A DNA stretch of 64,000 bases from Actinomycetota bacterium (lineage in GTDB: Bacteria > Actinomycetota > CADDZG01 > JAHWKV01). The notes below the pieces were generated by a model. It was not told where the DNA came from. It did not search any database and saw only the letters and a list, made by a program, of their open reading frames with translations. The stretch is taken from assembly GCA_030447305.1 (NCBI GenBank), contig JAUJPC010000002.1, positions 128,815 through 192,814 on the forward strand, given 5' to 3'. Within the stretch, counting starts at the first letter, position 1; the number at the start of each line of letters is the position of its first letter. Both the position numbers and the translations under genes were made by a program. Shown in pieces: positions 20,067 to 45,996 of this stretch.

Positions 20067-20615
20067 TCAGGCAGCAGGATCGTACTCATGGATCAGCCCT
20101 CCGAGGACGTTGTGACGTTCCGTACGAACGACATCACGGCACTCGGGCGGGTCAGTCGCCACAGTGAACTCGGGCACCTTCAGATCGGGCGCGCGACGAG
20201 GCCGAGCACGACAATCTCAAGGTAGTAGCGCAGCACCCGTTTTTCGCTTCGAACAGTCAGAAACCAATGTTTCGCGACGGCGTTCTCGCTCTTGGGGCCC
20301 GATAAGGCGTGCGGATGATCTTCGTGCCCTCGGACTCGATCGCCTCATTACTTGGACCGCTGAGCTTCGAGTCTCGAATCGTGGACGAGAAACCGCGGGG
20401 AAGAGGACTCGTCATGCCGACGGATGCACGAATTCCTCGCCTGCTGGGTCACCCACACTGAAACGGGGTGGGCGGCGACTCCGGCCACATGCACCTCGCG
20501 GGTGGAAAGCTCGATGAGAAAAAGACGTACCGGGACTCCAACCAATAGGTTCGACGGTGAAGAAATCGCAAGCGATCATCCCGTGCGCCTGAGCTTGCAG
20601 GAATCGCGTGCTTAA
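20067..20615 (-). pseudogene. DDE (integrase-core) transposase relic
   Basis: Pieces of one transposase appear in order but in shifting frames: FLQAQAHGMIACDFFTVE near 20610-20560 (first catalytic Asp), then VGVPVRLFLIELSTREVHVA and HPVSVWVTQQARN near 20545-20425, the region normally holding the second Asp near 20380, RTPYRAPRA and ENAVAKHW near 20290-20250 (near the catalytic Glu), and the C-terminal GLIHEYDPAA ending at 20067. In intact members of this rve-domain transposase family these read through one chain. At least four frame changes are needed and the N-terminal HTH part is missing, so it is dead. It lies just downstream of the defence operon and marks an old insertion at that boundary. 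Confidence 0.75.
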
Positions 20616-20698: not shown

Positions 20699-22527
20699 TT
20701 AGGACGATGGGCTCCGGTTCCACCCGGGGTCAGTTGCGCCTGGCCAGATCTCGAGGACTACATCGGCAAGTTCGCTACTGCGCTCGGCAATCCTTCGCTC
20801 GTCCCACGAGACGTGCGGGACGATCGACTGGCTCAGCTTCAGGAGGGAATGCTCGCGGAGCAGCTCGCGCTTCTCGTCCCACGGTCGGTTTGACTCGGTC
20901 TGGTTGAGCTTGGCGGTGACAAGGGTGAGGTTGCCAAGGCGGTGTTTCGCCGCGTCACGCTCTATCTCGGCGGCCAAGGGATCCGCATCGTCGGGGAGCC
21001 GCCAGTGCTGGTGCCAGGTCTGCGGGAGGACATGCTCGACATGCAGCCCACTGGTTCTGGTGAGCTGCTCGGACAACTCTCGCCGCAGGTGCTCCTCCAC
21101 CGCGGCGAGCAGCATGACCAGACGGGCCCGTTTGATGGTGTTGTACAGCGGAGCAGTGACCAGCTCCTCGCGAACGCGGTCGTCGTCAGGCCACTCCCGG
21201 GTGTCCCCTCGCGCCTCCTGCAGCCAGGTGACGACCGCATCGCCTGCGTTCGCAGGGGCGCTTTGCATACGGGCGATGAGCGTGGGGGCGACCTTGTTGT
21301 AGTCCTTCGTCGTTCCGCGGATGATCGCTCGACGCACGAGCCAGGACTCCATCGCTCGTAGTGCCCGCCGGCGCTCCTCGGCAGGCAGCACCGAGTCATC
21401 GAGGCCGTAGAGCAACAAGAAGACCGGCATGAACGTCGTGACGTCGAGGGTGGCGATCCGGGCGAAGAAAGCTCCGTCGGCCGAGTCCTTGGGGAAACGG
21501 TCGAACGAGTCGTACACCTGGGCGTGGCGCGACAAGTCGGCAATGAGCGGTTCGATCGGGCCGTCGCCATGCCCGTGCAACAGGCCACGGAACGTCGGGA
21601 ACAGCTGCTGGGAGTGAACGTCGCGGGCGGTCTGCATGACGAGCCAGTGCTGGAGGAACTGGTCTGCGCGCCCCCGCCGCAGCCGGCCAACGGTGATGTG
21701 CTGGCGCCAGGCCTCACTATCGAACTTCTGCCAGTACGTCTCATACAGTCTGACGACGTTCTCCTTACGGCCTTCGGCCACCCGGAACGTGAGGTTCTTG
21801 ATGAGGTCCACAGCCAGCAGCTCGGTCCCGCGGGCGTTGAGGACCTCGAAGATCGCTTGGGCGTTGTCGTTCGGCTCGAGGTCGATGACCACGATCTTCA
21901 ACAGGCTGCGGATCACGAGCTGCAGCGCGTCGAAGTGGCTTACGAGATTCTCCTCGCCGGCCGAGTCGGCTTCCTTGGCCCATTCCTCCGCAGCGCTCAG
22001 GAAGTAGCGATACGCGTCCGAGGGACGACCCTCGGTCGGATTGTTGGCCATCGCGCTGACGAAGGTGTCCCGGTCCCATTTGGTCGGCCACACCTTGAAG
22101 GTCTGGTCGCCCTCGTTGGCGTCGATGAGATCCGGGTCGTTAGTCAGCAGCTTGCCGAAGACCCGAGCGTGTTTTTCGAGGCGTTCGTCGCTCTCGGCGA
22201 CCGTGCGGATCGCCGCGATGAGGAGCTGCAGAGTGGTGAGCCGCTGCTGACCGTCGATGACGTGCCGCGCGTCGACCTTACCGGTACCGACGGCGAGCGG
22301 GTCGAGGACGACCGCCCCGAGGAAGTGCGGCGGCACCGACTGCTCCGCGTCCCTCGGGTCATCATGTCGCTCGTAGCTGTCAAGCAGGACGTCGACGACG
22401 TCGACGACGTCCTGCCACAAGGGCTCCCACTGCTTCTCGCGCTCCCAGACGTATGGACGCTGGAACATCGGCACGACGTAGCGAACATCGGCTCCGAACA
22501 GCTTGCTAAAGTCGAGCGTGTCGGCTT

Positions 22528-22531
<4 letters not shown>
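20699..22531 (-). CDS. DUF262-DUF1524 (GmrSD-like) nuclease of the defence operon
   Basis: A 610-residue protein. The N-terminal DUF262 (ParB-like) domain has VPMFQRPYVWEREKQ near residue 20 and DGQQRLTTLQLL near 92, the nucleotide-binding signature of GmrS-type proteins, plus FEVLNARGTELLAVDLIKN near 230. The C-terminal DUF1524 domain has the HNH-like nuclease motif HVEHVLPQ near 495 and HRLGNLTLV near 530. GmrSD, SspE and BrxU share these two domains and cleave phage DNA, often modified DNA, in an NTP-dependent way. The ATG overlaps the methyltransferase stop by four bases, so it is the last gene of a six-gene operon and the clearest candidate nuclease. Confidence 0.9.
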
Positions 22532-26505
<3,974 letters not shown>

Positions 26506-29337
26506 CTAGGCTTCCCCTGCGGGCAGTAGCACGTACACGCCGAGGAGGTCGGCCGGTAGATGCGGCCGGACCTGGAAGCGAACGCCCTTGCGGCGGGCCG
26601 CGTCACGGACGCGCCGGTGAGCGTCGAGCAGCCGCTCGGCCAGCGCGTGCGCTTCGGAGTCCAGGTGGCCGCCGAGGTGATCCTGCCCGTCGGTCACCGT
26701 GCGGGCGAAGCCGCGGGCCTGCTCGGGGGCGACGTTTGCGTCGGGGCGGGCGGCCAGCAGGCGCTCGACGTCCGCGTCGTCCAGCCACTCGGCGGCTTGG
26801 GGGCTGCTCGTGAACCCGAGCACCTTGGCGTCCTCGGCGAGGAGCTGGCGGTCCTGGCCCTGTTCGGTGACGAGCAGATGGAAGCGGAAGCGGCACACCA
26901 GCAGGGTGGTGCGGCGCGCGACCGCCGTCGTGCGCATAGCGCCGCAGCGAGCGGCCACCCCAGTGGCGTGCTCGTCCAGCGCGGTGTCGAGGACGTAGCT
27001 GGCGAGCCCTTCAACAAGGGGGTGCGTACGGGCCAGGTGCGCCTCGTCATCCTCGACCGGGAGGGTGAACCGGCCGTGAAGGACCGGGGTATCGTGCGCT
27101 CCGACGGCGTCCCTTGCGGCCGCCGGCACCTCGGCGAGGTCTAGCCGGACCCGGCCGTTTTCACCGGCCACGACCAGCCCGCCGAGCGCGGTGACCGCGT
27201 GGTTGACGAACTCCTCGACGTCGGTCTCGCTGCCCACCGCCGCGCGCATGGCCAGCACCTCGGGCCAGACCTCCTCAGGACGGATGGTTTGCTGGGCGAA
27301 CATGGTGCGGGAGCGCCGTTCGCGGTCGGCGGCATCCTCCCACTCGCTGTGGAGCACGTCGCGCTCCGCGGCGGCGCCGAGGTCGAGCTCCATCTGGCTG
27401 GGGTCGGCGCCGCGCAGCAGCAGCCCCTCAAGGATGGCCTCGACGACGCTGTTGGAGTTGGTCGGAACCGGGACGGAGACACCGAGCGATTTTCGGATCG
27501 CGTCGTGCTTGCGCAGAAGCACGTCCAGCACGATGCCGTCGATGCGGTTGTCCTTGCCGTAGTACGTGATGGCTCGCACGACGTCGCGGGGCTGGCCGAA
27601 GCGGTCGACGCGGCCCTCGCGCTGCTCGTGGCGGGTGGGGTTCCACGACAGGTCGTAATGGACGACCGCGTCGAACGGACGCTGCAGGTTGATGCCCTCC
27701 GACAGGCAGTCGGTCGCGACCAGCACCCGGGGGGACGGGGCGCCCCCCAGCTCGGCGATGCGGGTTTCGCGCTCGTCCGGGGGGAGCGTCCCGGTGATGG
27801 CCTCGACGGTGACGTTGTTGCCGAGCGCGGCGCGCAGGTGCTCGGCGACGTACTCGGCCGTGGGGATGAACCGGCAGAACACGATCGGGTTGTGCCCGTC
27901 CTTGATGAGCTCCTTGATGAGCTTTGTGGCGCCGGCGAGCTTGCTGTCGCCCCGTGGGCCTGCCAGGGCCTCGGCTTCGCGGGCTAGATCCCGCAGGCGG
28001 CGGCGGACGCGCTCGGTGTCGTCCTCTTGGTCGGCGTAGTCGGAGCCCGGGGGGACGTCCACCGCCTCTGCGGTTTCCTCGCCTGGCTGGTCGAGTACGG
28101 CACGTCGTCCTGCCTCGTCGGCGTCCTCGGGGGTTTCGGTGCCGAGGGCGTCAGCGCGGTTGCGCAACGTGGCGGCGGCTGCTGCGGGGCTGGAGGCGAG
28201 GGAGCGCAGGAGCGCCAGTGCGGACCACCAGCGGACCCGCTGGCGCTGCGCTCCACCCTCGGGATCGATGATGGTCTCGCGCGCGAAGGCAATCACCCTG
28301 TCGAGCAGCCGGCGGTAGCCGTCGGACAGCGTGTAGGTGGCTTCGGCAGTCTCCCGGGCTGGGAACGGGGTCTCCTCGTCGAGGTAGGCGCGGATGTCGG
28401 CGCGGCGCCGCTGCACGAAGTGCTGCGCGAGGTCCCGGCGATCGGCTTCGTGGCCCTGCCCCGACAGGTCGTCGGGCAGTGCGGCGAAGCGCTCGTCGAG
28501 CAGTGCGAGCAGGGCGCGGAAGGCTTCGTCCTTGCCGGAGTGCGGGGTGGCGGTGAGCAGCAGCAGGTTGCGGGTCGCGTCGCCAGAGAGGCCTTTGAGC
28601 AGCTCGTGCCGCTGATGGCGTCCGCGGGTCCCCGGTCCGCCGGCGTCGACGCAGGTGTGCGCCTCGTCGACGATGACCAGGTCGGGTGCAGCGCGGAGGA
28701 ACTCGTGACGGCGGCGCTCGGACTTGATGTAGTCGGTGGACACGACGGTGATGGGGTGCCGCTCGAAAAGTGACTCGCCGATGTCCAGCCGGCGCTCGAG
28801 CCGGGTGACGGTGGACGGCAGGACGAGCTGGGCGTCGAGGTGGAACTTCTCGGCCATCTCGCGCTGCCACTGCTCGGCGAGCTGGGGGCTGCACAGCACG
28901 GCAATCCGGCTGATGTCACCGTGGTCGTGCAGCTCGCGGGCGATGAGCAGCGCTTCGATGGTCTTGCCGACGCCGACGTCGTCGGCGATGAGCAGGCGCA
29001 CAGGGTCGAGCTTGAGGGCCATGAGCAGCGGCACGAGCTGGTAGGGCCGAGGCGTTACCGCGATCCGTCCGATGCTGCGGAAGGGGCCGGCGGAGGCGCG
29101 GAAGCCGAGCCGCAGGGCTTCGCGGAGGAGCCGACCGGAACGATAGTCGCCGACCTGGTTCGGGTCGGGTGGCTGGAAGACGGCGGGCTCGACGACCTCG
29201 AGGTTGGTGAGGATGCCGGTGGACTCGTCGTCGGTGCCGCCGAGGGGACGGACCAGGAGCAGGTCGTCGGCACTATCGGGCAGGACGACCCACTCTCGCC
29301 CGCGGGCGCGGACGAGGGAACCTACAGCGTGCGTCAT
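26506..29337 (-). CDS. SNF2-family helicase, DrmD-like
   Basis: A 943-residue SNF2/RapA-type translocase. Motif I DDVGVGKTIEALLIAREL lies near residue 117, motif II VDEAHTC near 226, motif III LLTATPHSGKDEAFRAL near 260, and the C-terminal helicase lobe has FCRFIPTAEYVAEHL, VLVATDCLSEGINLQ and HYDLSWNPTRHEQREGR then DRFGQ (motifs V-VI). Such translocases move on double-stranded DNA; in class 1 DISARM the equivalent is DrmD, encoded next to DrmMI as here. ATG 29337 is used, since the frame's earlier starts lie inside the small upstream gene, whose stop overlaps this ATG (ATGA). Confidence 0.9.
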   Translation of the reverse strand: MTHAVGSLVRARGREWVVLPDSADDLLLVRPLGGTDDESTGILTNLEVVEPAVFQPPDPNQVGDYRSGRLLREALRLGFRASAGPFRSIGRIAVTPRPYQLVPLLMALKLDPVRLLIADDVGVGKTIEALLIARELHDHGDISRIAVLCSPQLAEQWQREMAEKFHLDAQLVLPSTVTRLERRLDIGESLFERHPITVVSTDYIKSERRRHEFLRAAPDLVIVDEAHTCVDAGGPGTRGRHQRHELLKGLSGDATRNLLLLTATPHSGKDEAFRALLALLDERFAALPDDLSGQGHEADRRDLAQHFVQRRRADIRAYLDEETPFPARETAEATYTLSDGYRRLLDRVIAFARETIIDPEGGAQRQRVRWWSALALLRSLASSPAAAAATLRNRADALGTETPEDADEAGRRAVLDQPGEETAEAVDVPPGSDYADQEDDTERVRRRLRDLAREAEALAGPRGDSKLAGATKLIKELIKDGHNPIVFCRFIPTAEYVAEHLRAALGNNVTVEAITGTLPPDERETRIAELGGAPSPRVLVATDCLSEGINLQRPFDAVVHYDLSWNPTRHEQREGRVDRFGQPRDVVRAITYYGKDNRIDGIVLDVLLRKHDAIRKSLGVSVPVPTNSNSVVEAILEGLLLRGADPSQMELDLGAAAERDVLHSEWEDAADRERRSRTMFAQQTIRPEEVWPEVLAMRAAVGSETDVEEFVNHAVTALGGLVVAGENGRVRLDLAEVPAAARDAVGAHDTPVLHGRFTLPVEDDEAHLARTHPLVEGLASYVLDTALDEHATGVAARCGAMRTTAVARRTTLLVCRFRFHLLVTEQGQDRQLLAEDAKVLGFTSSPQAAEWLDDADVERLLAARPDANVAPEQARGFARTVTDGQDHLGGHLDSEAHALAERLLDAHRRVRDAARRKGVRFQVRPHLPADLLGVYVLLPAGEA

Positions 29338-29546
29338 GACACGCCCTCTGAAGTTAGTGGCTCCCAGGGATCGCCGAGCATCCAATATGTGACCATGCCG
29401 AGGAATTCATCCATGCGGACGATCTCGTAATACTTGCCCGTCCACTCGGCCTCGACTGCTATCTGCTTTCTCCGTTCACGGCCCCAGTCGACATGGATCA
29501 CCAATTGCGGACGGCGCCAGTGTCCATCCCTAGCCACCGCGACCAC
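29334..29546 (-). CDS. Small hypothetical protein coupled to the SNF2 helicase
   Basis: A 70-residue protein starting GTG 29546 or 29537. It reads HWRRPQLVIHVDWGRERRK, then AEWTGKYYEIVRMDEFLGM and MLGDPWEPL, an alternating strand pattern suggesting a small beta-rich fold. No family is recognised. Its TGA overlaps the SNF2 ATG by four bases and it starts 25 bases after the UvrD fusion gene, so it belongs to the operon. No good ribosome-binding site is seen. It could be an adaptor or an inhibitor of the helicase. Confidence 0.55.
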   Translation of the reverse strand: MVAVARDGHWRRPQLVIHVDWGRERRKQIAVEAEWTGKYYEIVRMDEFLGMVTYWMLGDPWEPLTSEGVS

Positions 29547-29570
29547 CCGGCCGACGTGAAGCAGGGCTCA

Positions 29571-31754
29571 TCATGCGTGTCCCTCAGTTCGAGCCCCCAC
29601 GGGCAGACCAAGCAATGATGATGGGGCGCCCACCCAGCCGCCCCAGAGCTGGTCCCGGGCACGCGTCATGGCGACGAAGAGCTGCCGGCGAAGCAGGTCG
29701 ACTCGTTCGGTGTAGGCGTCGTCGTCCTCGTTGAAGCGTTGCTGCTCTCCGAGGGTCTCGGGTTCGAGACGCGGCAGGAACACCCACTTGAACTCCAGGC
29801 CCTTCGCGCGTTGGAAGGTGCCGACCTTCACCTGGTCGGTTGGCTTGCCGTCGTACTGCTGGAGCTTCACGGTGTCGTAGCCGAGATCGCGGATCACCTT
29901 CTCGTAGTAACCGACGAGACGGTTCGTTGGGACGAGGACGGCGAGGTCGCCCGGGCCGACTCCAGGGGCCGTGGCGGCGTCGTCGATCGCGGAGACCAGC
30001 GAGGTGTCGTGGCCGGAGACATCGGCGAAGCCCTCGAGCCGAGGGGGAGGGCCCTCGCGGGTGACGGTAACGTCGCGGCGGGCGTGGGTAAGCTGGTCGT
30101 CGAGATCGTCGAACGGCCGGTCGCCGCTCACCCGCCAAGCGGCCTCGAGGATCTGGCGGGTGTTGCGGTAGTTCACCCGCAGAACAGTGGAGCGGCCCTT
30201 CACGTCGATGCCGACCTGCGCGAGGCTGTAGCCACCGGGGTACACCGACTGCTGGCCGTCGCCGACGAGGAAGAGCCCGTCGCGCTTGTCCCCGCCCGCA
30301 AGCAAGTGGGCGAGGCGCAAGCCGACCTCAGTGAGGTCTTGCGCCTCATCGATGACGACGGCGGCGTAGAAGCCGTCGCCGTCGGCATTTCGCGCGAGCC
30401 GCAGGGCGGCGAGCAGAACGTCGTTGAAGTCCTGGGCTCCGACGCGCTTCAGGTTGTCCTCGTACGCCTGCAACAGCTGCCAGACCTGGCGGCGGTGCGC
30501 CTCGGGCAGCCCGGTGCCTCGGCCGGTGCGCGACAACGCGAGGTATTCCTGCACATCGTCGAGGCCACGCCCCTTGATGACCCAGTCGATCTCCTCCCGG
30601 TAGTAGAACGGGCCGTAGCCCCGCTCATCGATGACAGTTCCGGGGGTGACGACCTGGCGCCATGCGTCCCGGTGAGCGCGGTCGATGGCGCCGGTGTCGA
30701 TGTTCGGCCGATGTCCTTGCTGGGCGCAGAAGCGCCAGGCCCACTTGTGGAGGTTGATGAACTCGACGCCGTCGGGTTTGTCCGGGCTGAGGCGGCGGTA
30801 TAGCTCCTCGTAGACAGGCGGTAGGTTGGTCACGTACGTCGTGAACAGCACCTTGGCCTGGTAGGTGTCGGCGAGGTGGCGGGCGCGGTGCAGCGCGACT
30901 ACAGTCTTGCCGGTGCCCGCCGCGCCCCGTACGCGGGCAGGGCCGGCAAGGGGGCGCTCGGTCAGGCGCACCTGGTCGGGGTGCAGGAAGATCATCCAGT
31001 CTTCGATCGGCTTGGACAGCACCGTGCCCAACGCCTCAGCGGCGACGGGGGCGAACTCCGAACGTGACGCGGGCTTGGTGATCGTCCGCTCGAGCGCCTC
31101 GTCGGCAGCAGCCTCCTCCTCGGTTTGGAGGACGAACTCGGTCGCTTCCTCCGCGGGCTCATCGACGGTTGCCGAGGCAGCGGCCTCGCCGTCCGGGTGG
31201 CCATGGGCGAGCAAGTTGTATGCCAGCGTGAACGCCTCGGCGCGCATGCGCGGCTCTAGGTCGAGGAGCTTGGCTTCGTCGTCGAGCCGGCGCAGCACCT
31301 CGACCTCCTGGTCGCGGAAGCCGAAGTTGCCCAGCTCCTCGTCGTTCCAGGCCATGAACAGCACGCCTTCGCGCTGACGCCGCTGGTCGTACTGGACCGG
31401 CTGGGAGGTCACAGGGTCGGCATCGAGGATGCGCACGAGGTCCTGTTGGAGGTCGATCTCCAGGCGCAGTCGCTCGGCCCGGTGCTCGACGGCGTCGTGT
31501 TCGCCAAACAGAAGCAGAACGATCACGCGGTTCGCCATGCGCCAGATGAGCCGGTGGCCTCGGTTGCCGACGTAGGAGATGAACGTCTTGCCCTCCACCC
31601 GCCTCATCCGGTGGCTCTGCAGGCGTGGGTTGCTGAACGGCTCGGTGGCGAGTTCGCCGAGCGCCTCATGCAGGTCGAGCAGAGCGCGCTCGTCGCGGGT
31701 TCTGAAGGACTCGACGGTGTCGATGAACGGCTTGGTGTAGTAGAACTGGTACAT
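29571..31754 (-). CDS. RelE-like domain fused to UvrD-family helicase
   Basis: A 727-residue fusion. Residues 1-100 match the RelE/ParE-type toxin fold: a helical hairpin (FIDTVESFRTRDERALLDLH), SHRMRRVEGKTFISYVGN, RLIWRMANRVIVLLLFGEHD and a closing helix with AVEHRAERLRL. After a charged acidic linker (about 150-240), a superfamily 1 helicase begins: motif I GAAGTGKTVVALHRARHL near 275, motif II VIDEAQDLTE near 468, motif III GDGQQSVY, NYRNTRQILEAAW, VGTFQRAKGLEFKWVF and motif VI LFVAMTRARDQLW near the end. RelE proteins cleave mRNA on the ribosome; whether this copy is active is unknown and no antitoxin is seen. ATG 31754 lies two bases after the preceding stop. Confidence 0.85.
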   Translation of the reverse strand: MYQFYYTKPFIDTVESFRTRDERALLDLHEALGELATEPFSNPRLQSHRMRRVEGKTFISYVGNRGHRLIWRMANRVIVLLLFGEHDAVEHRAERLRLEIDLQQDLVRILDADPVTSQPVQYDQRRQREGVLFMAWNDEELGNFGFRDQEVEVLRRLDDEAKLLDLEPRMRAEAFTLAYNLLAHGHPDGEAAASATVDEPAEEATEFVLQTEEEAAADEALERTITKPASRSEFAPVAAEALGTVLSKPIEDWMIFLHPDQVRLTERPLAGPARVRGAAGTGKTVVALHRARHLADTYQAKVLFTTYVTNLPPVYEELYRRLSPDKPDGVEFINLHKWAWRFCAQQGHRPNIDTGAIDRAHRDAWRQVVTPGTVIDERGYGPFYYREEIDWVIKGRGLDDVQEYLALSRTGRGTGLPEAHRRQVWQLLQAYEDNLKRVGAQDFNDVLLAALRLARNADGDGFYAAVVIDEAQDLTEVGLRLAHLLAGGDKRDGLFLVGDGQQSVYPGGYSLAQVGIDVKGRSTVLRVNYRNTRQILEAAWRVSGDRPFDDLDDQLTHARRDVTVTREGPPPRLEGFADVSGHDTSLVSAIDDAATAPGVGPGDLAVLVPTNRLVGYYEKVIRDLGYDTVKLQQYDGKPTDQVKVGTFQRAKGLEFKWVFLPRLEPETLGEQQRFNEDDDAYTERVDLLRRQLFVAMTRARDQLWGGWVGAPSSLLGLPVGARTEGHA

Positions 31755-31756
31755 CG

Positions 31757-34700
31757 CTACCGCACCTGGCCGAAGCTGCTCGGGTGGGCGCGGAGAATGC
31801 CGATCCACGCGTCCTGCTCGTGGTGGCGGAACCGCAGCGACGTGTAGCCGAGGTCGGCCAGGCAGGCGTCGATCTCGGCGTCGCGACCCCGCTGCTGGTC
31901 GGTATCGTGGTCGGGGCCGTCGACCCAGATGACGGTGTAGGAGGGGCCGTAGAGGAAGTCGGCGCGCGCCGCGCACGACTCGATGAGCTTCTGTGCGTGG
32001 GTGGGCAGAGCGGCTTCGCGCTCAGCCACAAAGTCGAGCCACTCGCGTTCGAGGTCGGAGTCGCAAGCGGCCTTCAGCCGCTCCAGCTCGGCGGAGCGGG
32101 GACGCCCCCCTGGGCTCGTGGCGACCGCGGCGTCCCGCAAGGCGAGGAGGGTCGACAGAATCGCCTGGCGGTCGAGCAACCGGTGATCCCGCTGGTTGCG
32201 GTAGCTCATGAGGCAGTCGTAGCAGGCTGCCTCGCAGTCCTGCCTGGCGCCGGGGGCCCGTCGGAGGTCCTCGCCGGTGTCCGGATCGAAGTGGCACACC
32301 TCGAGCGCTTCGCGGGCCACCTTGGCGAGCGCGTTCCGCTCGAGGGCGAGGCGCCGCAGTACCCCTGCGCCTCCCTCGGCGGCCTCGTACAGCAGGATCG
32401 AGCGCCGGTCGTCCTCGGCCGGCAGAGGATCGGCGGCGAGCTCATCGTCCTCGAGCTGGAACGCCGCCTGGACGCCGGCCTTCAACGCCGCGGTGAGGCT
32501 TGCGTTCAATGCGTCGCCGAGCGGGGCGGCCGGCTCGATGATGAGACAGTTCCGCCGGTCCTCGACGTAGGGGATGACCCGCTGCGCCCGTTGCGCGCGG
32601 TCGGCGTCCGGCAGGGGGTCGTCGCCCTGGTCCAGGGCGCTCTCCGACAGCCAGCGGCCCGACTCCAGGTCAAGGACGTAGCCGTAGCGGGCGGGGTCCT
32701 TGCGCCGACGCCAGCCCAGGTTTATCCGCCACACCGTCGCTGCGTCCCCGTAGGTGAACGCGGCAAGATCCTCTCCGCCGGGCGCCGTCACCTGGGCTGT
32801 CTGGTACCCGGGACGGGCCCCTGCAGTCGCGAACCGCACGCCCGTGCGCATCTGGAAGCCCGTGCGCTGGCGCTCTTCCTCGTCAGAGTTGATCCGCTCT
32901 CTGCGCCGGGTCACGGCGTTGTGCATGCGGAACAGGCCGGTGATCGGCGCGCCGAGTTCGGCACCGCAGCGTTCGCAGACGTCCGCGCCGAGCGTGTCGT
33001 CGCAGGGGTGCAGGTACCCGCAGCCAGAGCACTGCTTCACAGCGCCGAGCGGCAGGGTCCCCTCGTCGTCGTAGTCGCCCGCAGGGATGACCACCCGCTC
33101 CACCTGGTAGCGGGAGCCCTCGTGGTAAATGAGCGCGCCGGGCCCGAACTCGCTGATAGCGAGGAATCGCGGGCGGGACAGATACTCATCGCGCCCCTTG
33201 CGGCCGGGGACGAACGCGCTCAAAGGGAGCCTGGGGAAGCTGTAGCCCGGAAGGAACCCCTCGCTGGCGAGGTAGCGGTAGGGGTAGAAGTCGCTCTGGT
33301 AGCGATCGGTCGCGTCGGAGGTAAGCAGATCCATCTGCGCCTCGGCTTCGCGGCGCAGTGCTCGTGCGCGATTCTTCTGCTTCGGCCCGGCGGAGGGGTC
33401 CTGGGCGATGCGGGTCTGCTCGTGTGCCTGGCCCGCTGCGGCGTGAAACAGCTCGCGCCAACGCCCGCAGGCGTCGTCGAGGCGGTTGCCGACACCGGCG
33501 AGCGTCTCGTCGAGCCAGCCGTTGGAGTACCAATGGGCGTCGATGAGGTCCTCGCTGATGGAGACGAGCAGCGCCCTCGCGCTCGCGTGGGCTCGCTGCA
33601 TCGCTCGTTCGTCGTCCATGGCGCGCTGCAGGTCCTCTTGCAGAGGGTAGCCGTCGGCGTCGAGGTTCAGGACATCGCGCATCGAGCTGCCGAGCTTGAC
33701 GCCAGTCTCGGCCAGCCAGATGGCCTGCACGTGCGCCCGGACGAGGTCCTCGTTGGCGAGGTCAAGCCGCGGAGGGGCGACGGCCCCAGCGACCATCCGG
33801 TCCGCGCGGCGGAAGAAGTACTGGTCGTGTGGGCTACCGCCGGCGCAGTATGTGGTGACGATGGCGGGCTGGCCGGAGCGGCCGGCCCGGCCGGAGCGTT
33901 GCGCGTAGTTGGCTGGCGTGGGTGGCACGTTGCGCAGGTGCACCGCGTTGAGCTGAGCGATGTCGACGCCGAGCTCCATCGTAGGCGAGCAGTACAGGAT
34001 CGGCAGCCGGGCGTCGCGAAAGTCATCCTCCCGCTGCTGGCGCACCTCGGAGAAGACCTGCGCGGTGTGTTCCCGCGCCTCGAGACCGCCGAGCGCTGTT
34101 GACTCGTCGCGGTAGAAGCGCATGAAGAACGGGTTGGTGCGGCCGCCATCGTCAGGGCGATCGGGGCTGCGGATGGGGTCGGGGTGCGCCGTCGAGCCGT
34201 CGCCTGCACGCCAGATCATGGCGCCGGCCACCACCTGGTAGCCGGCTGTGTCGTCGGCCTCGCGAGGCTCGTCGGTGACCTGGACCAGCCCCGCGATGCG
34301 TAGGCGCTCGAGCAGTTCGAGGATCACCTCCTGTGCCTCGTCGGTAGTAAGACGGGCACCGTCCCAATCCGGGAAGGTCGTGCGCTTGCGCAGCCAGCGC
34401 GCGAACCCGCCACGGCCCGACAGGAAGTGGTTCGTGCGCTGGTCGTTCGCCCGGCGCGAACGTGGATAGGCAACGGCAGCCTGCTCCAGCCGCTCACCCG
34501 GGTCGATGGCCCATCGTGCGTTGAGCCGCTGGTAGGATTGGTCCCGAATCGAGGTCTGCTCGTCGGGGTCCAGCCAGGTCACGTGGGTAGCCAGGTTGCG
34601 GCGGAGGTCGTCGAGCAGGACCCGGCAGATCCGCTCGCGGGTCACAGGTGTGGTATCCACGAGCACCGCATGGCAGCCGCTCCACTCGGTGTCGGCCAGG

Positions 34701-36940
34701 GCGAGCTCGTCGACGGATTCGTAGTCGATCTGGAGCAGACCGGTCTGCTCGAGGTTCGGCATGGTGACCCGCCAGCCCCGCTTGAGATCCTGGTACAGCC
34801 GGTAACCGAGGACAGCCTGGAACGCCCGCTCGGTGGCCTTGCGGGCGGCGAACTTCACTTCGGGGTCGGCAGCATATTCCTCGAAGGGCAGGTCCAGTGT
34901 GTCGAATACGGCCTGGACGAGCCGGTCGCTGCGCAGGCCATCCTCGCCCGTGGCACGGGCGGCGCGGTGGAGCGCACCCCGCAGGAGCCCCACCTCGACG
35001 AAGTCGTTGAAGTGTCCTGCTTGCAGGGAGGCGTCCTGCCTGTTGTCGGTGAACGACAGGAGCTTGCGGCCCTGCGGCTCGAGGGTCTTGTCCTCACGTA
35101 GGGTGCGGATCAGGGACAGGCTGATGAGGCTGGTCGCCGAGCTGCGGCCTTCAGCGGAGAGCAGCGACAGCTTCGTGAGGTCCGAGCGCATGGTGGGGTC
35201 ATAGGAGATCCCGCAGGCGAGGCAGAAGCGGAATGGTGCGGGCAGCCAGGTCATCGGCACACCGCCGCCGGGGCTGACGCGCCCGGCGGGATCGACCTGC
35301 ACGTTCTGGGGGATGTCCGAGCGACGGTTGGGGTCGATGCGGACGACGCCGGCCTCCTCGAGCAGCCACGACTCGGGCACCCGCTCGCGGATCCGGTCGA
35401 GGTCGTCGGGCCATGGCCGATCGGAGTCGATATGTACGAACCCCGCCTGCGCGTTGTCGTCGCTGGAACGCTCGCCAATGTCGCGGGGCAGCAGCGTGCC
35501 GTCGGGCAGGCGGATGACGGTGTAGTACTCCTCGCCGCACTCCCGGCAGAAGGCCAGCGGGAGGAGCACCTTGTCCCGCTCGCCGGGCTTGTAGGTCTGC
35601 GCCTCGACGGTGGCGTATCGCGTGCCCTCGGGCTCCGCCGTGGCGTAGACGGTGTCGCCCTTCGTGAGGAACTGGTGGAGCCGGAAGGCGAAAACCGGTC
35701 GTTTGTCCTCAGGGTGGATCGTGCGGAAGCCGGCGAGGAGGGTGTCACGGATGGCGGCCGCGCAGATAGCGGCATCGGCGCCCGTGGCTGTCGCCAGATG
35801 CGCGGCGGCGCTCTCGCCGCCGCTGATTGTGCGCGGCTGCCCGCGACGCAGTTTGCCGGTGGCGGGGTCGAGGGCGAGGCCGAACTCCCCTTCGATCCAG
35901 CGGACGAGGGAGTCGGCGATGAAGTCCTCGTACTGCGTCGGGGGCGGTGCTCCGGAGACTCTGGCGGCGAGGGACTGCTTGGCGTCCGCATCGGTGAGTT
36001 CGATGGGCGGGGTGAGCCGGCGGAGGGTCTCGCCGATGACGTGCTCGGGGCGGACCTCGGCGCCGAACATCTGGGTGGCGACGTGGGCCACGGCCTGCCG
36101 CTGCTCGACCTCGGTTCCGCCGCTGGCCATCGTCGCCGACGTCCCGACGACCTGAAGGTCGGGCGCCTGGCACGCGTCGCGGACTCGCCGGACGAGCATG
36201 GCGACGTCGGCGCCCTGGCGGCCGCGGTAGGTGTGGAGCTCATCGAGAACAAGGAATCGCAGATGCCCGCGGGCCGCGCGGATGAGCTGCTGGCGCTCTC
36301 TGGGGCGGGTGAGGACGAGCTCGAGCATCACGTAGTTCGTGAGGAGGATGTCGGGCGGGTCGGTGGTGATGCGCTCCCGTTCCTCGTCGGACTCCTGACC
36401 GGTGTAGCGGGCGAAGGTGACCGGCTCCTTGCCGGGGGGATAGCCGAACCGCAGGAACTTCTCCAGCTCGCCGTACTGGCTGTTCGCCAGAGCGTTCATT
36501 GGATACACGACGATGGCCCGGATTCCGCGACCGGCACCCTCCCGTAGGACCCGATCAACGATCGGGACGATGTAGGTGAGCGACTTACCCGAACCGGTGC
36601 CGGTGGTCAGGACGTAGTTCGCACCGGCTCGGGCCGCTTGGATAGCCTCGACCTGGTGCTGGTGGAGAGTGATCTGTCGGCCAAAGTCGGTGGCATCGGC
36701 CTTGGCGCGAAAGATCTTGCTGCACTCGTCGTGAAGCAGCCCCTCGGCCACGAGGTCGTCGGGGGTGGCGGCGGGCTCGAAGTTCGGGTTGAGCTGTACC
36801 CAGGGATCGGGCCAGAGCAGGCCAGCGTCCACCGCCTCCTCGACGGTGGCAGCGATCCGCTTGTCCGCGATTTCGACGAAGCTGCGAGTGAACCGGGCGT
36901 AATCGTCGATCAGGCGCTCATGAACGCGGAAGACGTCCAA
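31757..36940 (-). CDS. Giant DEAD/DEAH helicase with DUF1998, DrmA/DrmB-like
   Basis: A 1727-residue superfamily 2 helicase, first gene of the operon. N-terminal lobe: [11 protein letters not shown] then [12 protein letters not shown] (motif I, near residue 109), [19 protein letters not shown] (motif II, near 233) and [10 protein letters not shown] long middle follows with C-x-x-C-like sites ([20 protein letters not shown]). The C-terminal lobe has [20 protein letters not shown] and [18 protein letters not shown]. Near 1280-1330 is a zinc cluster ([15 protein letters not shown]). DUF1998 follows with [16 protein letters not shown] and four Cys ending [13 protein letters not shown] (about 1480-1580). 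The last 90 residues ([10 protein letters not shown] ... [16 protein letters not shown]) look like a Vsr/DUF559 nuclease-like fold. The length equals DrmA plus DrmB. The start is TTG 36940 behind GAGGGGAGGG. Confidence 0.88.
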
Positions 36941-37163: not shown

Positions 37164-39089
37164 TTATTGGCCCCATAGCCAGGAGCGGAGCCCGGAAGGG
37201 CGGGTGATTGGGCGGTTGATGGCGGCCCGGATGGCGGTCTCGGTACCGGTGAGGATCAGACGTTCTCGTGCTCGCGTTACCGCGGTGTAGAGCAGTTCTC
37301 TTGTGAGGATCGGCGAGGCGGGATCGGGAAGGACCACGGCAACCGTGCCGAACTGGGATCCCTGGCTCTTGTGGACCGTCATTGCATAAACCGTATCGAC
37401 GTTCGCGAGCTTGGTTGGGCTGAACTTCAGGAACTCTCCGCGCCTTTCAAACGTTGCGACCACTCCACCTCCCGGAGCGGCAATCGCCACGCCGGTGTCG
37501 CCGTTGAACAGGCCAAGGCCGTAGTCGTTCTCGGTCACTAGCAGGGGCCGGCCTACGTACCAGGTCCCCCCGGCCGCGAAACCGTCGATCCCGGCGGCCA
37601 GCCAGTTCTCTACGTTCGTCATCCACGTGGCCACCCCGTAAGGGCCTCGCCTGTGGGCGCAGAGTAGGCGGAAGGACCCGAGAGCGTCGAGTGCTGATTT
37701 GGCCTGCCCGGCCCGGGCCGCCTCGGTGACGCGCCGTCCGGCGTCGATAACTGCCGCCCGCATCGGCGCCAGCGTCGTTGCTGAGCCCGGATCGGCTACA
37801 TCTACCGGGATCCATCGCACGTCGTCTCGCCCCAGGGCCAGCACCGCAATAGCCGCATCGGCATCGCCTTTCTGGACTGCCTCCGCCAATGCTGCGATGC
37901 CGCCGCCGAAGCGGTGAACACGGCGCAGGATGACGATTCCGTCCCCGACGCTCGTGCCGGCCGGGGGTGCCGTTGCAGAAACCTCCTGGTGAGTCACCTC
38001 CGACAGTTGTTTGGCTGCCGGCGTCCGCATCAAAATCCCGGTAGCAGCCGGTCCAACGATGTCTCCCAGGACCGCACCCGCCTCTACGGAGGCGAGTTGC
38101 TCGGGATCTCCAACCAGAACCAGCCGGGCGCCTGGCCGCACGGCTTCTACCAGTCTGGCCATTAGCGACAGCGACACCATCGAGGTCTCGTCTACCACGA
38201 CTACATCGTGAGGGAGTCGGTTGCTTTGGTTATGGCGAAAACGGACGCTGCTGTCGGGACGCCAGCCGAGCAGCCGGTGAAGCGTCGAGGCGTGGGTATC
38301 CAGCAGCCGCTTCCGGGTGCCGTCGCCCACATCCAGCGAAGCTGCGGCGGTGTGCACGGCCTGTTCGAGACGGGCGGCGGCTTTGCCTGTGGGCGCTGCT
38401 AGGGCGACCATCAAGGGTGGAGAACCAGCGGTGCGAGCTTGCTCGTCGAGCAGGGCCAGGATGGCAGCCACGGTTGTGGTCTTGCCGGTCCCCGGACCCC
38501 CCGCAACCACCGAGAACCTCCGCAGCACGGCAGATGCTGCTGCGAGCCGTTGGTCGGGTTCCGGACCCCCGAACAACCGGGTCAGCCCCTCGGTGAGCAC
38601 CTCCGCGTCCACTCCCGCTGCTGCCGGCTCGCTGCGCGCGTTCAGGTCCGCGGCCACCCGACGTTCGTCTCGCCAATACCGGTCCAGATAGAGCTTTGTG
38701 CCCACCAGTCGCAGTGGGCGATCGGCCGGCCCCTCCAGACCGTGGGCCACGATCGGGCTGGAAGATAGCCGCTTAACCCAGTCGCTGATTTCGGGCCAAG
38801 GCAACGCCTGCAGGTCGATAGGCTGATCTACGTCGATAAGGACGCTATCGCGGATTGTGGCCAGGTCGGTGCACACGTGGCCCAGGCGAGGTGCGCGAAC
38901 CGCGAACGCAGCGGCAAGTAGCACGGCCTCGTGCCTCTCAACGCCGAGTTTTCCGAGGCGCAACGCCACATGAACCTCGGCCGCCCCGAGCACCCCGGCG
39001 TCATTGAATGGCCGCAATAGGCCCGGTGCGTGCCGCACGCGATGCACGTCGAATCGATCCGATTCAAGAACTACGGGGTGGGTACTCAT
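37164..39089 (-). CDS. recD: RecD, exodeoxyribonuclease V alpha subunit
   Basis: A 641-residue superfamily 1B helicase. Motif I AGGPGTGKTTTVAAILALL lies near residue 195, motif II VVVDETSMVSLSLMARLVEA near 300, motif III GDPEQLASVEAGAVLGDI and motifs V-VI MTVHKSQGSQFGTVAVVLP and LYTAVTRARERLILTG near the C-terminus, all standard for RecD. RecD is the 5'-3' motor of RecBCD, which resects double-strand breaks and degrades linear foreign DNA until Chi sites. ATG 39089 overlaps the RecB stop by four bases. Length is close to the family norm (about 600-650). Confidence 0.93.
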   Translation of the reverse strand: MSTHPVVLESDRFDVHRVRHAPGLLRPFNDAGVLGAAEVHVALRLGKLGVERHEAVLLAAAFAVRAPRLGHVCTDLATIRDSVLIDVDQPIDLQALPWPEISDWVKRLSSSPIVAHGLEGPADRPLRLVGTKLYLDRYWRDERRVAADLNARSEPAAAGVDAEVLTEGLTRLFGGPEPDQRLAAASAVLRRFSVVAGGPGTGKTTTVAAILALLDEQARTAGSPPLMVALAAPTGKAAARLEQAVHTAAASLDVGDGTRKRLLDTHASTLHRLLGWRPDSSVRFRHNQSNRLPHDVVVVDETSMVSLSLMARLVEAVRPGARLVLVGDPEQLASVEAGAVLGDIVGPAATGILMRTPAAKQLSEVTHQEVSATAPPAGTSVGDGIVILRRVHRFGGGIAALAEAVQKGDADAAIAVLALGRDDVRWIPVDVADPGSATTLAPMRAAVIDAGRRVTEAARAGQAKSALDALGSFRLLCAHRRGPYGVATWMTNVENWLAAGIDGFAAGGTWYVGRPLLVTENDYGLGLFNGDTGVAIAAPGGGVVATFERRGEFLKFSPTKLANVDTVYAMTVHKSQGSQFGTVAVVLPDPASPILTRELLYTAVTRARERLILTGTETAIRAAINRPITRPSGLRSWLWGQ

Positions 39090-42000
39090 GTCCTGGCCGT
39101 TCCGCGGTACAGCAGATCGCTGAGCCCTTCAACCAGCGCGGTAGGCGGTTTCCAGGCAAACACTCCGCAGGGCTGGCCCCCGACGCGGGGTGCCCCGGCC
39201 CCGGTCATCCCCCGCACGAAAAGATAGAGGACACCTGCCAGGTTGCACTCCGGGTCATAGTCACGCAGGCGCCAACGCAGGTAGCGGTGCAGTGCGGTGG
39301 TGTACAGCAGCGCCTGCAGAGGGTAGTGAGCCCCCTGCATCTCCTGGACAAGAACCGCCGGGCGATAGTGCCATGCACTCAGGGGCCGGCCGGCCGCGCC
39401 GAGCCAATTCGTCTTGTAGTCCACGACTGCAAAGCGCTGGGTGCCTTTATGGTTCCGGGTGCGTAACACGAGGTCGAGGCTCCCGGTTAGGTAGCCACGC
39501 AGGTCTCCCCGGAGCGCCGGGTCTTCAAGCCGCTCCGAGTAGCCGGCGAGAACATGGTCCGCAGGCAGGTGCTCGCGCAAAAGCGAGGCGATCGCAGGCA
39601 CTGTTAGATGCGCATTAGGGGTGTCGCCGCCCACCAATGGCAGCTCGAAGGTCATCTCGTCCACCCGGTCTGTAAGGCCGATGTCGCGAAGCCTCGCCTC
39701 GCCCATCAGGGGGCCGAGGGGAGTCTCGATGGCAGCTTGAAGACCCGCAACGACGGCAGCTTGGTCCCCGATATCGAGGCGGTGTCGGGCCTGCTCCGCA
39801 CCGACGCGTCTGGTGAGCTCGGCCTTAAGGTCTGCGATAGCGAAGTCAGTTGTCTCCAGGACGCTGTGGACGAAGGTGCCCACGTCCATTCCGGCCGGCA
39901 TATTTGCCAGCGAGGCGGAAATCGAACGTAGCCGAACCTCATCCGCCTCGAGCGGATCGAGAGCAGGACCGGGAGGAGCCCCCGTTTCCGTCTCGTCGGA
40001 GACCACCACCTGCTCCGGCTCGCTGGTGACCCAGGCTTCGTGTGCGGCCCAGGTGATGCCGCTATAGGAGTTGCGCCGCCAGGTGGAGTCGAGTCTTCTG
40101 TCGAACCGGCCGGCTTCCAGCGCGACAAGTGGGCGGGGAGTTGCCGGCCGGACTTCACCGGAGCCGCCCGTCGAGCGCTCCACGCTGATGCAGCCGGGTG
40201 CTTCCACGGCAAGAGCTCTGAAGTGAGAGCTCACCTGGGCGTCCCCCGGCACTCCCCGGCCCTGCGTCCCAACGTTGCCTACGTCGTCCCTCGAGAACAG
40301 TAGCCGGCTGAGTGCCGAGTTTTGACTATCATATGAACCCGCCCACCACACGACGGCCTGATGCTTCGCCCGGGTAAGGGCGACATAGGCGAGGCGTAGC
40401 TCCTCACCGCGCTGCTCGCCGACAAAGTGCTTCCAGTGGCGGTCGTAGTCCGGCCCCTTCGCTCCGCCCACATCGATCGTGCGCCGATTCTCGGCTTCAG
40501 GGTCGTGAAAAATTGGTGGATCCTTGAGGTCAATCCACCCTGCCTCCCACAGGTAGGGGTAGTACACAATCGGGAACTCGAGGCCTTTGCTCCGGTGAAT
40601 AGTCAGGACCTGCACTGCTTCAGCGTCGGACTCCAGTCGTCTGTTGCGTTCCTCGGTTTCTGTGTCCCGAGCTGAATCGGCGATGCGCTGACGGAGCCAG
40701 GCTGTCAGCGCCGTGGTGCCCAACTGCTGCGACGTGTTGACGACATGCAAGAGCTGGCCGATGTGACGGAGGTCGGTGAGTTGTCGTTCCCCCTCCAGCC
40801 GGGCAAGCATGCGTGCGAACAGGCCCTCGCTTCTGGTGATTGCTTCGAGCAGCGAGGCGACGCCCCGCTGGCGCAGCAGACCGGCCCATCGGTGAAGGCG
40901 GGTATGGAGGTTTTCCAACGCGACCTCGTCGGCGGACGCCACCTGTTCGGCGTTCCAGCCCAGGAAACACGTCAGCGAGGCGGACGTCGCATGCGTGGGC
41001 GAGGTGGGCCGCTCCAGAGCCTCCAGAAGGCGGAGCCATTCTCGCGCCGTTGGCGTAGCGAAGACACTGCCCGCCCCGTTTATGACGGCGGGGACCCCGG
41101 CGGCGTTCAGCGCGTCACGGACAAGGACAGCATTTTTGTTCGTACGCACCAACACCGCTATGTGGCCGGGGCGTACGCGCTCGGCGGAAGCTGGAGACCC
41201 GTCGGGCCGGCGGGTGATGATCTTAGCGCTCGAGGAGAGCAACCTCACCACGTCGGCGGAGAGATCGGCAGCCACATGGAGTCGGCCGGGCTCGGCCTGC
41301 ACATAACCTTGGGGTGTAAGGCCTACGAGCCCGCTGTCTCGGTAAACGACGCGTAGTCGCAAGGCTGTCGATACCGGCGCTCCCACCAGCCTTGCCCCGT
41401 AGTGCGCTTTGGCCGCCTGTACATGGCGGTAGGGAATGTCCTCATGTCCCAGGTTCGCCCCGCGGAATATGGCGTCGAAGGCATCAAGGAGGCCTTTGTC
41501 GCTGCGCCAGTTGGTGTCGAGCGTTGCCTTGGTAGTGGCGTGGCGTCCGGCATCCAGATAGGCATAGACGTCGGCGCCCCGGAAGGCATATATGGCCTGC
41601 TTGGGATCGCCGATCAGCACGAGCGTGGCGCCACCTTCGCCAAAGGCCCGCCGCATGATCTCCCACTGGATGGGATCGGTGTCCTGGAACTCATCGACCA
41701 GGGCGACGCGGTACCGGGCCCGCAGACGAGCGCAAGCTGCGGCGCCCCCTACCTCGTCGGCCAGGGTGTTGCGCAGCTGGGCGAGGTGGTCGTCGAAGGT
41801 CATGATTCCGCCGCGTCGCTTGCGAAGCTCCAACTCCGCTCGAACGGCTCCGGCAAACATGCGGCGGATTCCCGGTTCAGCCTCATCGCCAGCCGTGCGC
41901 GGCTCGAGTGGGGCGAAGGGATTCTCGACGGCCTTCTTGGCAATACGCAGGGCCTCGGCTCGGCTGAAAGGTGGGCTGGAAAGCGGGTGGAACCTGGCGA

Positions 42001-42511
42001 TGTAAAGGTCGTCGACGACCTCTTCCAAAAGATCGCTGAGGTCCTCGACAAAGATGATGCCGCGTTCGACATCGCCCGCCACGCCGAGCCCGCTCAGGAC
42101 CTGTTCGCAGAATCCATGAGTCGTGGCGATGGTTGCGGCGTCGAAATCCGTAAGTGCCCGACCCAGGCGCCGATGTCTCAAAGCAAGCTCGTCGGGACGT
42201 CCGCGGGCAAGGAGTTGGAGAATCTCATCGTCATCGTCATCGGCGGGCGCTACGCCGCCCATTGCCTGACGCAGGCCCTCCTCTGCGCTGACGAGCCGCT
42301 CCCGGACCCGTTCACGCAGCTCGCCGGTCGCCATCCGAGTGAACGTAACCACCAGCAGGTGCTCGAGCGGCGTGCCGTCCGCCACATAGCGGGCAGCAAG
42401 GGCGGCAATCGCGAACGTCTTACCGGTGCCAGCACTGGCCTCGAGTACCGTGACCCCAGTGGGGAGGGGACCACAGACGTCGAACGGAGCGGGGTCTTGA
42501 CCTCCGTTCAC
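39086..42511 (-). CDS. recB: RecB, exodeoxyribonuclease V beta subunit
   Basis: A 1141-residue RecB with both activities. Helicase motifs: VLEASAGTGKTFAIAALAAR near residue 20, VALVDEFQDTDPIQWEIM, LVLIGDPKQAIYAFRGADV, VLTIHRSKGLEFPIVY and LRLAYVALTRAKHQAV. The C-terminal nuclease domain shows FVHSVLETTDF, LDLVLRTR and VVDYKTNWLG (about 1000-1030) with QALLYTTALHRYL, i.e. the His, Asp, Asp-Lys and Tyr residues of the RecB nuclease. The start is set at GTG 42511, which overlaps the RecC stop as GTGA; the frame is open 13 codons further into recC. Confidence 0.93.
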   Translation of the reverse strand: MNGGQDPAPFDVCGPLPTGVTVLEASAGTGKTFAIAALAARYVADGTPLEHLLVVTFTRMATGELRERVRERLVSAEEGLRQAMGGVAPADDDDDEILQLLARGRPDELALRHRRLGRALTDFDAATIATTHGFCEQVLSGLGVAGDVERGIIFVEDLSDLLEEVVDDLYIARFHPLSSPPFSRAEALRIAKKAVENPFAPLEPRTAGDEAEPGIRRMFAGAVRAELELRKRRGGIMTFDDHLAQLRNTLADEVGGAAACARLRARYRVALVDEFQDTDPIQWEIMRRAFGEGGATLVLIGDPKQAIYAFRGADVYAYLDAGRHATTKATLDTNWRSDKGLLDAFDAIFRGANLGHEDIPYRHVQAAKAHYGARLVGAPVSTALRLRVVYRDSGLVGLTPQGYVQAEPGRLHVAADLSADVVRLLSSSAKIITRRPDGSPASAERVRPGHIAVLVRTNKNAVLVRDALNAAGVPAVINGAGSVFATPTAREWLRLLEALERPTSPTHATSASLTCFLGWNAEQVASADEVALENLHTRLHRWAGLLRQRGVASLLEAITRSEGLFARMLARLEGERQLTDLRHIGQLLHVVNTSQQLGTTALTAWLRQRIADSARDTETEERNRRLESDAEAVQVLTIHRSKGLEFPIVYYPYLWEAGWIDLKDPPIFHDPEAENRRTIDVGGAKGPDYDRHWKHFVGEQRGEELRLAYVALTRAKHQAVVWWAGSYDSQNSALSRLLFSRDDVGNVGTQGRGVPGDAQVSSHFRALAVEAPGCISVERSTGGSGEVRPATPRPLVALEAGRFDRRLDSTWRRNSYSGITWAAHEAWVTSEPEQVVVSDETETGAPPGPALDPLEADEVRLRSISASLANMPAGMDVGTFVHSVLETTDFAIADLKAELTRRVGAEQARHRLDIGDQAAVVAGLQAAIETPLGPLMGEARLRDIGLTDRVDEMTFELPLVGGDTPNAHLTVPAIASLLREHLPADHVLAGYSERLEDPALRGDLRGYLTGSLDLVLRTRNHKGTQRFAVVDYKTNWLGAAGRPLSAWHYRPAVLVQEMQGAHYPLQALLYTTALHRYLRWRLRDYDPECNLAGVLYLFVRGMTGAGAPRVGGQPCGVFAWKPPTALVEGLSDLLYRGTART

Positions 42512-45500: not shown

Positions 45501-45996
45501 CGCCGACCGCCCAGGCACCGAGCATCTCGGGTCGGTGGACGCCGTAGCGGTCGAACAGATCGGCGATGTGGCGAACCGTGCTGAATCGGCGGCCGCGCCG
45601 TTCGAAATCGGGTCCGGAACCCTTCGCCCCTAGGTGGGTCGCCAGGGAGGTGAGCCATTTTTCGTGGATGCACTGATCGACTACGTCGAGCAGCGGCCAC
45701 ACCAGGCGCTGCGGCAGCCAAGGATCGGTATCGCGATCGATACCTGTAGCCGTGGCGACTGCTCCTCCGACCAACCGTCCGGGGAACGGAAACTCGATGT
45801 TGGCGCAAACGCCGTCCGAGCGCCCCGCTCTCGCTCCCAGCTGCGCAGACAACCTCTGCGCCAACCACCGCTCAACCCCGCGGGTAGGCACGGCAACTAC
45901 TTCGGGGGTCACGGGGTCGTCGAGCGGTTCGCTGACCAGCTCGCCAAGCGCCACAACGAGGCCGTCTGCTCGCTCTGCTCGGTGGACCCTCAGCAC
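42508..45996 (-). CDS. recC: RecC, exodeoxyribonuclease V gamma subunit
   Basis: A 1162-residue RecC. Typical stretches are VAVPTRGVERWLAQRLS near residue 37, GVCANIEFPFPGRLV near 62, RLSLFGLTRLPASYLQVL, LQIHACHGPGRQVEVVRDAI near 355, VIVMCPDIETFAPLI, ITYTGRDERTNAKRPPAVVV and PLQPFDVRNF. RecC holds the split helicase fold that recognises Chi and couples the RecB and RecD motors. GTG 45996 lies nine bases after the stop of the glycosylase gene. Gene order is glycosylase, recC, recB, recD, all coupled. The length is close to E. coli RecC (about 1120). Confidence 0.92.
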   Translation of the reverse strand: MLRVHRAERADGLVVALGELVSEPLDDPVTPEVVAVPTRGVERWLAQRLSAQLGARAGRSDGVCANIEFPFPGRLVGGAVATATGIDRDTDPWLPQRLVWPLLDVVDQCIHEKWLTSLATHLGAKGSGPDFERRGRRFSTVRHIADLFDRYGVHRPEMLGAWAVGDDTDGAACPLPQDSVWQAELWRRLRAQMNQPSPAERLAGACERLRSDAALVDLPPRLSLFGLTRLPASYLQVLAALGTQREVHLFLLHPSPVLWERIAIATREQPMMARRAQDITSALPRNPLLASWGQDAREMQLVLAGDRATSDDDHRPVNEPATTLLARIQADVRADRSPPGVPLPGQKDTLPDLKSDDKSLQIHACHGPGRQVEVVRDAILHLLAEDPTLEARDVIVMCPDIETFAPLIHATFGARDINDDEDEDENELGRGERPPDLRVRLADRSLRQTNPILGVVAELLDLASARLTATQLLDLASREPVRRRFRLDDDDLSRLEEWVGETGVRWGFDAAHREPFQLGWLDANTWHAGLDRMLLGVAAAEEGQRLFGGVLPLDDVAGGDVGLVGRFAELVDRMQATLAKLAEPKAVGAWAESIAEAADSLTATFGHDAWQRAQLQRLLDDIIIEATVDGSVNASPLALPEIRFLLADRLRGRPTRANFRTGHLTVCTLVPMRSVPHRVVCLMGLDDGVFPRTTARDGDDIILGDPHVGDRDARTEDRQLLLDALLAAIDALIITYTGRDERTNAKRPPAVVVGELLDVVDRTVRTGETADEAEPVPARRHVMVHHPLQPFDVRNFTIGALVPRQAWSFDSVSLDGARALSGDRLASPPFLTGPLPEAGKEVVELDRLVAFVHHPVKAFLRQRLDLSLSDYSKDLRNDLPVELDALENWGVGQRLLEARLAGGKAEACVEAEIARGILPPGAFASAVLSSIMPVVERIFLEVSALTVKTDEPSSMEVNLLLPQGRTLVGTVPNIRGDLMLSATYSRVAPKHRLAAWVRFLAVTAAHPDHPLEAATVGRNRNAAPKRQVTIARLALPGASAKRSELALAHLAILVDLYDRGMREPLPLYCETSAAYRGASSPKRGLIAGRKAWESEWNYNHEDKDIEHLLVLSGIRSFDEVLMAPPCENETGHGWATDEQSRFGRYARRLWDGLLSSEKLIDL

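Follow-up and report, generated by a model that had tools for sequence, protein, structure and literature searches.

What does a RelE-like domain do at the N-terminus of a UvrD-type helicase, when the gene encoding both lies in an operon that resembles an anti-phage defence system? This question is raised by a gene in the actinobacterial DNA analysed here, a stretch of 64,000 nucleotides that is referred to below as the window. A RelE-like/UvrD fusion has already been described as ArmD of the ARMADA Type II system (Bell et al. 2025, PMC12458937). ARMADA II of E. coli NCTC 12900 was reported to provide direct, non-abortive anti-phage defence, during which cells stay intact and metabolism is not shut down, and this defence required all four genes as well as the Walker A lysine of ArmD (PMC12458937). 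In the same work RNase activity was predicted for the RelE-like domain, without a reported test, and the mutants of ArmD described in its main text are Walker mutants, with none in the RelE-like domain. Type I ARMADA was defined there as a three-gene system without ArmD, consisting of YprA, BrxHII-like and PglX-like proteins. No report of nuclease activity was found for any ArmD in the literature, and later publications that mention ARMADA yielded nothing further on this protein.

This analysis describes three aspects that go beyond the published work (PMC12458937), namely the Type I operon setting of an ArmD-type gene, the altered catalytic set in the group to which the window protein belongs, and the probable replacement of the RelE-like domain by a NERD domain.

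The armD-like gene and its operon

The coordinates originally predicted for the fusion gene proved correct, and the gene sits on the minus strand, which is open across 31754..29571, while frame 1 of the plus strand is interrupted by several stops (Table 1). The helicase motifs are intact, as had been claimed (GAAGTGKT, VVIDEAQD, VNYRN, AKGLEFKWVFLP and FVAMTRARD), and Pfam recognised UvrD-helicase (4e-16) and UvrD_C (8e-10) in the protein and no family in its first 250 residues. The best PADLOC profile was GajB (1.8e-23), with a match confined to the helicase part (residues 257-543). The UvrD-type helicase is common to the window protein and GajB of the Gabija system; however, no gajA, encoding the ATPase-endonuclease, was found adjoining the window armD, which has armC and armA as its neighbours. 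A search of phage genomes gave weak matches to the helicase core only.

Table 1. Features of the armD-like gene and its operon in the window.
Feature	Position	Strand	Remarks
armC	31757..36940	(-)	ARMADA Type I-like YprA-family DEAD/DEAH helicase carrying an MZB domain; shares 40-56% identity with Type I-order relatives
armD-like gene	29571..31754	(-)	727 aa; RelE-like domain, linker, UvrD/GajB-like helicase
N-terminal domain, residues 1-111	31422..31754	(-)	RelE/YoeB/YafQ fold; AlphaFold2/Foldseek and conservation
H48	31611-31613	(-)	catalytic position of the N-terminal domain
V62	31569-31571	(-)	in place of the family Arg; equivalent of YoeB R59
R68	31551-31553	(-)	catalytic position of the N-terminal domain
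H86	31497-31499	(-)	catalytic position of the N-terminal domain
Helicase core, residues 251-716	29607..31004	(-)	SF1, UvrD/GajB-like; intact motifs
Possible small ORF	29340..29549	(-)	60-70 aa, between armD and armA; includes VIHVDWGRERRKQIAVEAEWTGKYYEIVRMDEFLGMVTYWML
armA	26506..29385	(-)	SNF2/RapA-type helicase (BrxHII/DrmD/DpdE-like)
armB	22528..26505	(-)	PglX/DrmMI-like N6-adenine DNA methyltransferase; NPPW present
gmrSD	20699..22531	(-)	GmrSD-type (DUF262/DUF1524) restriction protein; 4 bp overlap with the end of armB

The genes are arranged in the order of transcription armC-armD-armA-armB-gmrSD. The predicted location of the fusion gene in a defence operon was borne out as well. The ATG of armD lies 2 bp past the stop codon of armC, and armD is separated from armA by 185 bp, in which a possible small ORF is found. 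This ORF matched no Pfam family and had no counterpart among the loci fetched, and an antitoxin role for it was rejected on that ground. Moreover, no known antitoxin family or antitoxin-like neighbour was detected in the window operon.

The armC, armA and armB genes of the window share approximately 40-60% identity with their counterparts in Type I-order loci and follow the same order, differing in the insertion of armD between armC and armA and in the GmrSD gene that follows armB. For armC, identity to Type I-order homologues amounts to 40-56% over most of the length (>1000 bits where the homologue is near-complete), as compared to 23-40% over local stretches, mostly at 100-145 bits, for the YprA proteins of most Type II-order loci. 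Both the window operon and ARMADA Type II hold a BrxHII-like ArmA, a PglX-like ArmB and a YprA-like ArmC, and the ArmD of Type II is likewise a GajB-like UvrD helicase with an N-terminal RelE-like domain. However, the window protein is approximately 28-30% identical to Type II ArmD, its helicase belongs to a separate, fully supported clade, the gene order is C-D-A-B rather than A-B-C-D, and the window protein lacks Y90, W92 and one of the YoeB-type catalytic positions. Judged by identity and gene order, the core of the operon is ARMADA Type I, and the fusion protein encoded within it is of the ArmD type and has a predicted active site that is partly altered.

Fold and catalytic positions of the RelE-like domain

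The structure of the N-terminal domain was predicted with AlphaFold2 from an alignment of 68 homologues (pLDDT 83.1, pTM 0.76); as the model was built on the family alignment, homology and model are not independent. In a Foldseek comparison with the PDB, the best 42 matches were all toxins of the RelE/ParE superfamily, with YafQ, an H. pylori toxin and YoeB at the top, and the model superposed on most of the best matches with a TM-score by target of 0.72-0.83 and a probability of 1.00. The N-terminal domain of the canonical, E. coli-type ArmD (pLDDT 92.8) was assigned to the same superfamily by Foldseek. An HMM of ArmD N-terminal domains, from which the window sequence had been excluded, scored the window domain at 18.8 bits; the highest score among 20,000 residue shuffles was 10.1 bits. 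The conserved block pointed out in the original prediction (RLIWRMANRVIVLLLFGEHD) corresponds to the two strands that bear R68 and H86. In sequence comparisons, Pfam and NCBIfam (permissive settings included) and phmmer against PDB sequences gave no match to the window domain, RelE-type PDB chains were reached only by the family profile, and weakly so (best E 0.017), and Pfam ParE_like was weakly matched by 25 of 73 family members (best 1e-5). On basis of the HMM score above that of the shuffles, the AlphaFold2 model and the RelE/ParE matches in Foldseek, the fusion of a RelE-like domain to a UvrD helicase is real.

To locate the catalytic positions, YoeB sequences from PDB entries were aligned with the family, which placed YoeB E46, R59, R65 and H83 at window positions 48, 62, 68 and 86, respectively; the roles of these residues in YoeB have been described, and R59 was reported as required (PMC3814384). 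The full YoeB set ([E/H]48, R62, R68, H86) was present in 72 of the 75 canonical ArmD N-terminal domains, a collection that includes some near-identical pairs, with R68 and H86 being invariant, and D87, Y90, W92 and an NPxTG motif are mostly kept across the ArmD family. The conservation table thereby singles out positions 48, 62, 68 and 86. The corresponding residues in the window are H48, V62, R68, H86, D87, E90 and R92, which means that three of the four YoeB catalytic positions are present, and that the R59 equivalent, Y90, W92 and the NPxTG motif are absent. H48 occupies the position of His50 in YafQ, the probable base of that toxin. The proposed RNase activity is therefore plausible at the level of the family, in which nearly all canonical domains keep the four positions; the window copy retains H48, R68 and H86 and is one position short. 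The domain resembles YoeB and YafQ in its fold and in the placement of these three residues, and differs from both in being fused to a helicase, in a helix and hairpin that extend beyond the catalytic His, in its lack of the R59 equivalent, and in that no antitoxin gene was found alongside.

The closest relatives of the window protein, L110 (56% identity) and L111 (48%), carry H48, R68, H86 and D87 as in the window. R62, W92 and the NPxTG motif are absent from all three proteins, and Y90 from the window and L111, while L012 and L020, which belong to the same helicase clade, have lost further catalytic positions. The view that the window domain is simply degenerate, as the loss of Y90, W92 and R62 might indicate, was dropped because H48, R68 and H86 are conserved in L110 and L111.

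Probable domain exchange and possible role

The helicase clade of the window includes actinobacterial proteins that have a NERD nuclease at the N-terminal place of the RelE-like domain, and Pfam PF08378 was found above cut-off in 4 of the 4 NERD-type proteins of this clade that were scanned. These NERD-UvrD helicases (PADLOC C3a187, RTasNERD-Hel) have, apart from L110 and L111, the helicase core closest to that of the window protein (42-46% identity), and they differ from it by a PD-(D/E)xK NERD domain where the window has its RelE-like domain; the N-terminal domain of L114, from the sister clade, had no Pfam match. The window, L110 and L111 form one group in the helicase tree (98/96), adjacent to the NERD group, and L012 and L020 fall outside. 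A single group of all five RelE-like forms was rejected (AU p = 0.013), a value to be read with caution, as this group was defined once the first tree was known and L020 and L012 are long branches. Since every other branch carries RelE-like domains, the simplest reading of these sequences would be that NERD replaced the RelE-like domain within the window's helicase clade.

In 15 readable Type I loci from the same phylum, armC, armA and armB are contiguous, with no RelE-UvrD gene among the three; in two of these loci (L104, L105) a NERD-UvrD gene is located upstream of armC. A Type I core together with a RelE-like-UvrD gene was encountered in the window and L073 (both C-D-A-B), in L012 (D-C-A-B) and in L020 (C-A-B-D-GmrSD). 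L073 is a deltaproteobacterial MAG, the ArmD of which is unrelated to that of the window and occupies the same slot. A 100/100 branch separates the two proteins in the helicase tree, so the slot between armC and armA appears to have been filled by ArmD at least twice.

With a probability of roughly one half, the RelE-fold module is a helicase-tethered nuclease that acts in cis and was recruited into the Type I ARMADA operon, a reading that is favoured over that of a free mRNA-interferase toxin triggering abortive infection. ArmA, ArmB and ArmC (in ARMADA a SNF2 motor, an adenine methyltransferase, and a YprA helicase with nuclease tail) would recognise and process invading DNA, after which ArmD would be loaded onto the resulting strands and unwind them. 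The RelE-fold module would then cut in cis the RNA or single strand engaged by the helicase, and host mRNA would not be its target. Candidate substrates may include RNA in hybrids, nascent phage transcripts and single-stranded DNA; a report on a YoeB toxin describes cleavage of DNA as well as RNA (PMC7878887). The nuclease activity, its substrate and the restriction to cis are what we infer here, as is activity of the window copy with its one missing catalytic position. A nuclease is indicated by the residues that the family conserves at the catalytic positions and by the exchange for a DNase domain, and a free toxin is made less likely by the non-abortive phenotype reported for ARMADA II and by the failure to find an antitoxin. 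Further points in favour are the RelE fold itself, the residues shared by the window, L110 and L111, the 2 bp spacing of armC and armD, and the recurrence of the C-D-A-B order in L073. Evidence against consists of V62 and the missing Y90, W92 and NPxTG in the window, the losses in L012 and L020, and the weak profile matches to the PDB. Because the R59 equivalent is missing, there is a real chance that the window copy may only bind.

This last consideration leads to the somewhat unlikely alternative that the RelE-like domain of the window is a relic or a binding module, which kept the fold, lost the ability to cut, and docks ArmD on DNA, RNA or other Arm proteins. It would account for the residues lost in the window, L110 and L111, for the further catalytic losses in L012 and L020, and for a sister clade with NERD replacement or no Pfam match (L114). 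However, H48, R68, H86 and D87 were kept in the window, L110 and L111 despite a mere 48-56% identity to the window protein, a His/Arg/His set that should not persist in a plain relic, and substitution by another nuclease suggests a nuclease role. The abortive-infection option of the original prediction, which also named repurposing for binding, would involve a ribosome-dependent mRNA interferase that is restrained by the helicase and released on infection. Such a role would agree with the YoeB/YafQ-type fold and catalytic positions, toxins of this type being known to cut mRNA on the ribosome (PMC3814384), but it is improbable, as the only tested system of this kind, the E. coli ARMADA II, was reported to be non-abortive without metabolic shutdown (PMC12458937), the operon yielded no known antitoxin family, and NERD replacement is hard to reconcile with a ribosome-directed toxin. 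It is very improbable indeed that the domain makes a ParE-like contact with a protein or with DNA gyrase and is no nuclease: the weak ParE_like matches in Pfam could be taken to suggest this, but ParE toxins are without RNase residues (PMC11980606), which the great majority of canonical ArmD domains possess, and the top fold matches of the window domain are YafQ and YoeB.

The RelE-like/NERD swap and the two separate insertions of ArmD at one and the same site of Type I operons suggest that the module is no addiction toxin but a nuclease partnered with the ARMADA machinery; if true, a classic ribosome-toxin fold would gain a second use in direct restriction. More tentatively, and with some doubt, RelE-like-UvrD and NERD-UvrD proteins may be interchangeable nuclease-helicase accessories that were independently recruited to ARMADA I/II, DISARM-like, Type III R-M-like and GmrSD loci, in which the RelE fold would act on invader nucleic acid as a nuclease guided by the helicase, a toxin fold in a non-toxin role.

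Gene neighbourhoods and surroundings of the operon

A GmrSD (DUF262) gene directly follows the RelE-UvrD gene in L020, L037, L043, L044, L056 and L062. Loci with this pair belong to several actinobacteria and a Chloroflexi MAG, and the pair looks like a recurrent two-gene unit. In L009, L051 and L065 the RelE-UvrD gene adjoins one for a Type III-like methyltransferase (PADLOC PDLC03632); in L007, which lies on a Thermus plasmid, its neighbours are brxL and a gene for a RecQ-like helicase. Of the two closest relatives of the window protein, one has drmA/drmB-like genes and the gene for a McrB-like AAA protein nearby (L110/L120), and the other is divergent to a SNF2 helicase and an Eco57I-type methyltransferase (L111/L121).

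In the window, G+C content is 68-71% at 24-36 kb and 58-66% in the remainder, a contrast that is consistent with an acquired island. The recC, recB and recD genes (37164-45996, minus strand) immediately precede the operon in the same orientation, and 223 bp separate them from armC. As no RecB or RecD match was found beside the other Type I loci read, recCBD was rejected as part of the system and taken as a chromosomal neighbour. A promoter scan returned no promoter-like site, a terminator scan returned three weak terminator-like sites, where shuffles gave more, and Rfam and tRNA scans gave nothing at the island edges. Finally, a fragment just downstream of the GmrSD gene (20348-20545, minus strand), which had no Pfam match, resembles by eye a DDE integrase/transposase core, and is possibly the scar of a mobile element that brought the island.
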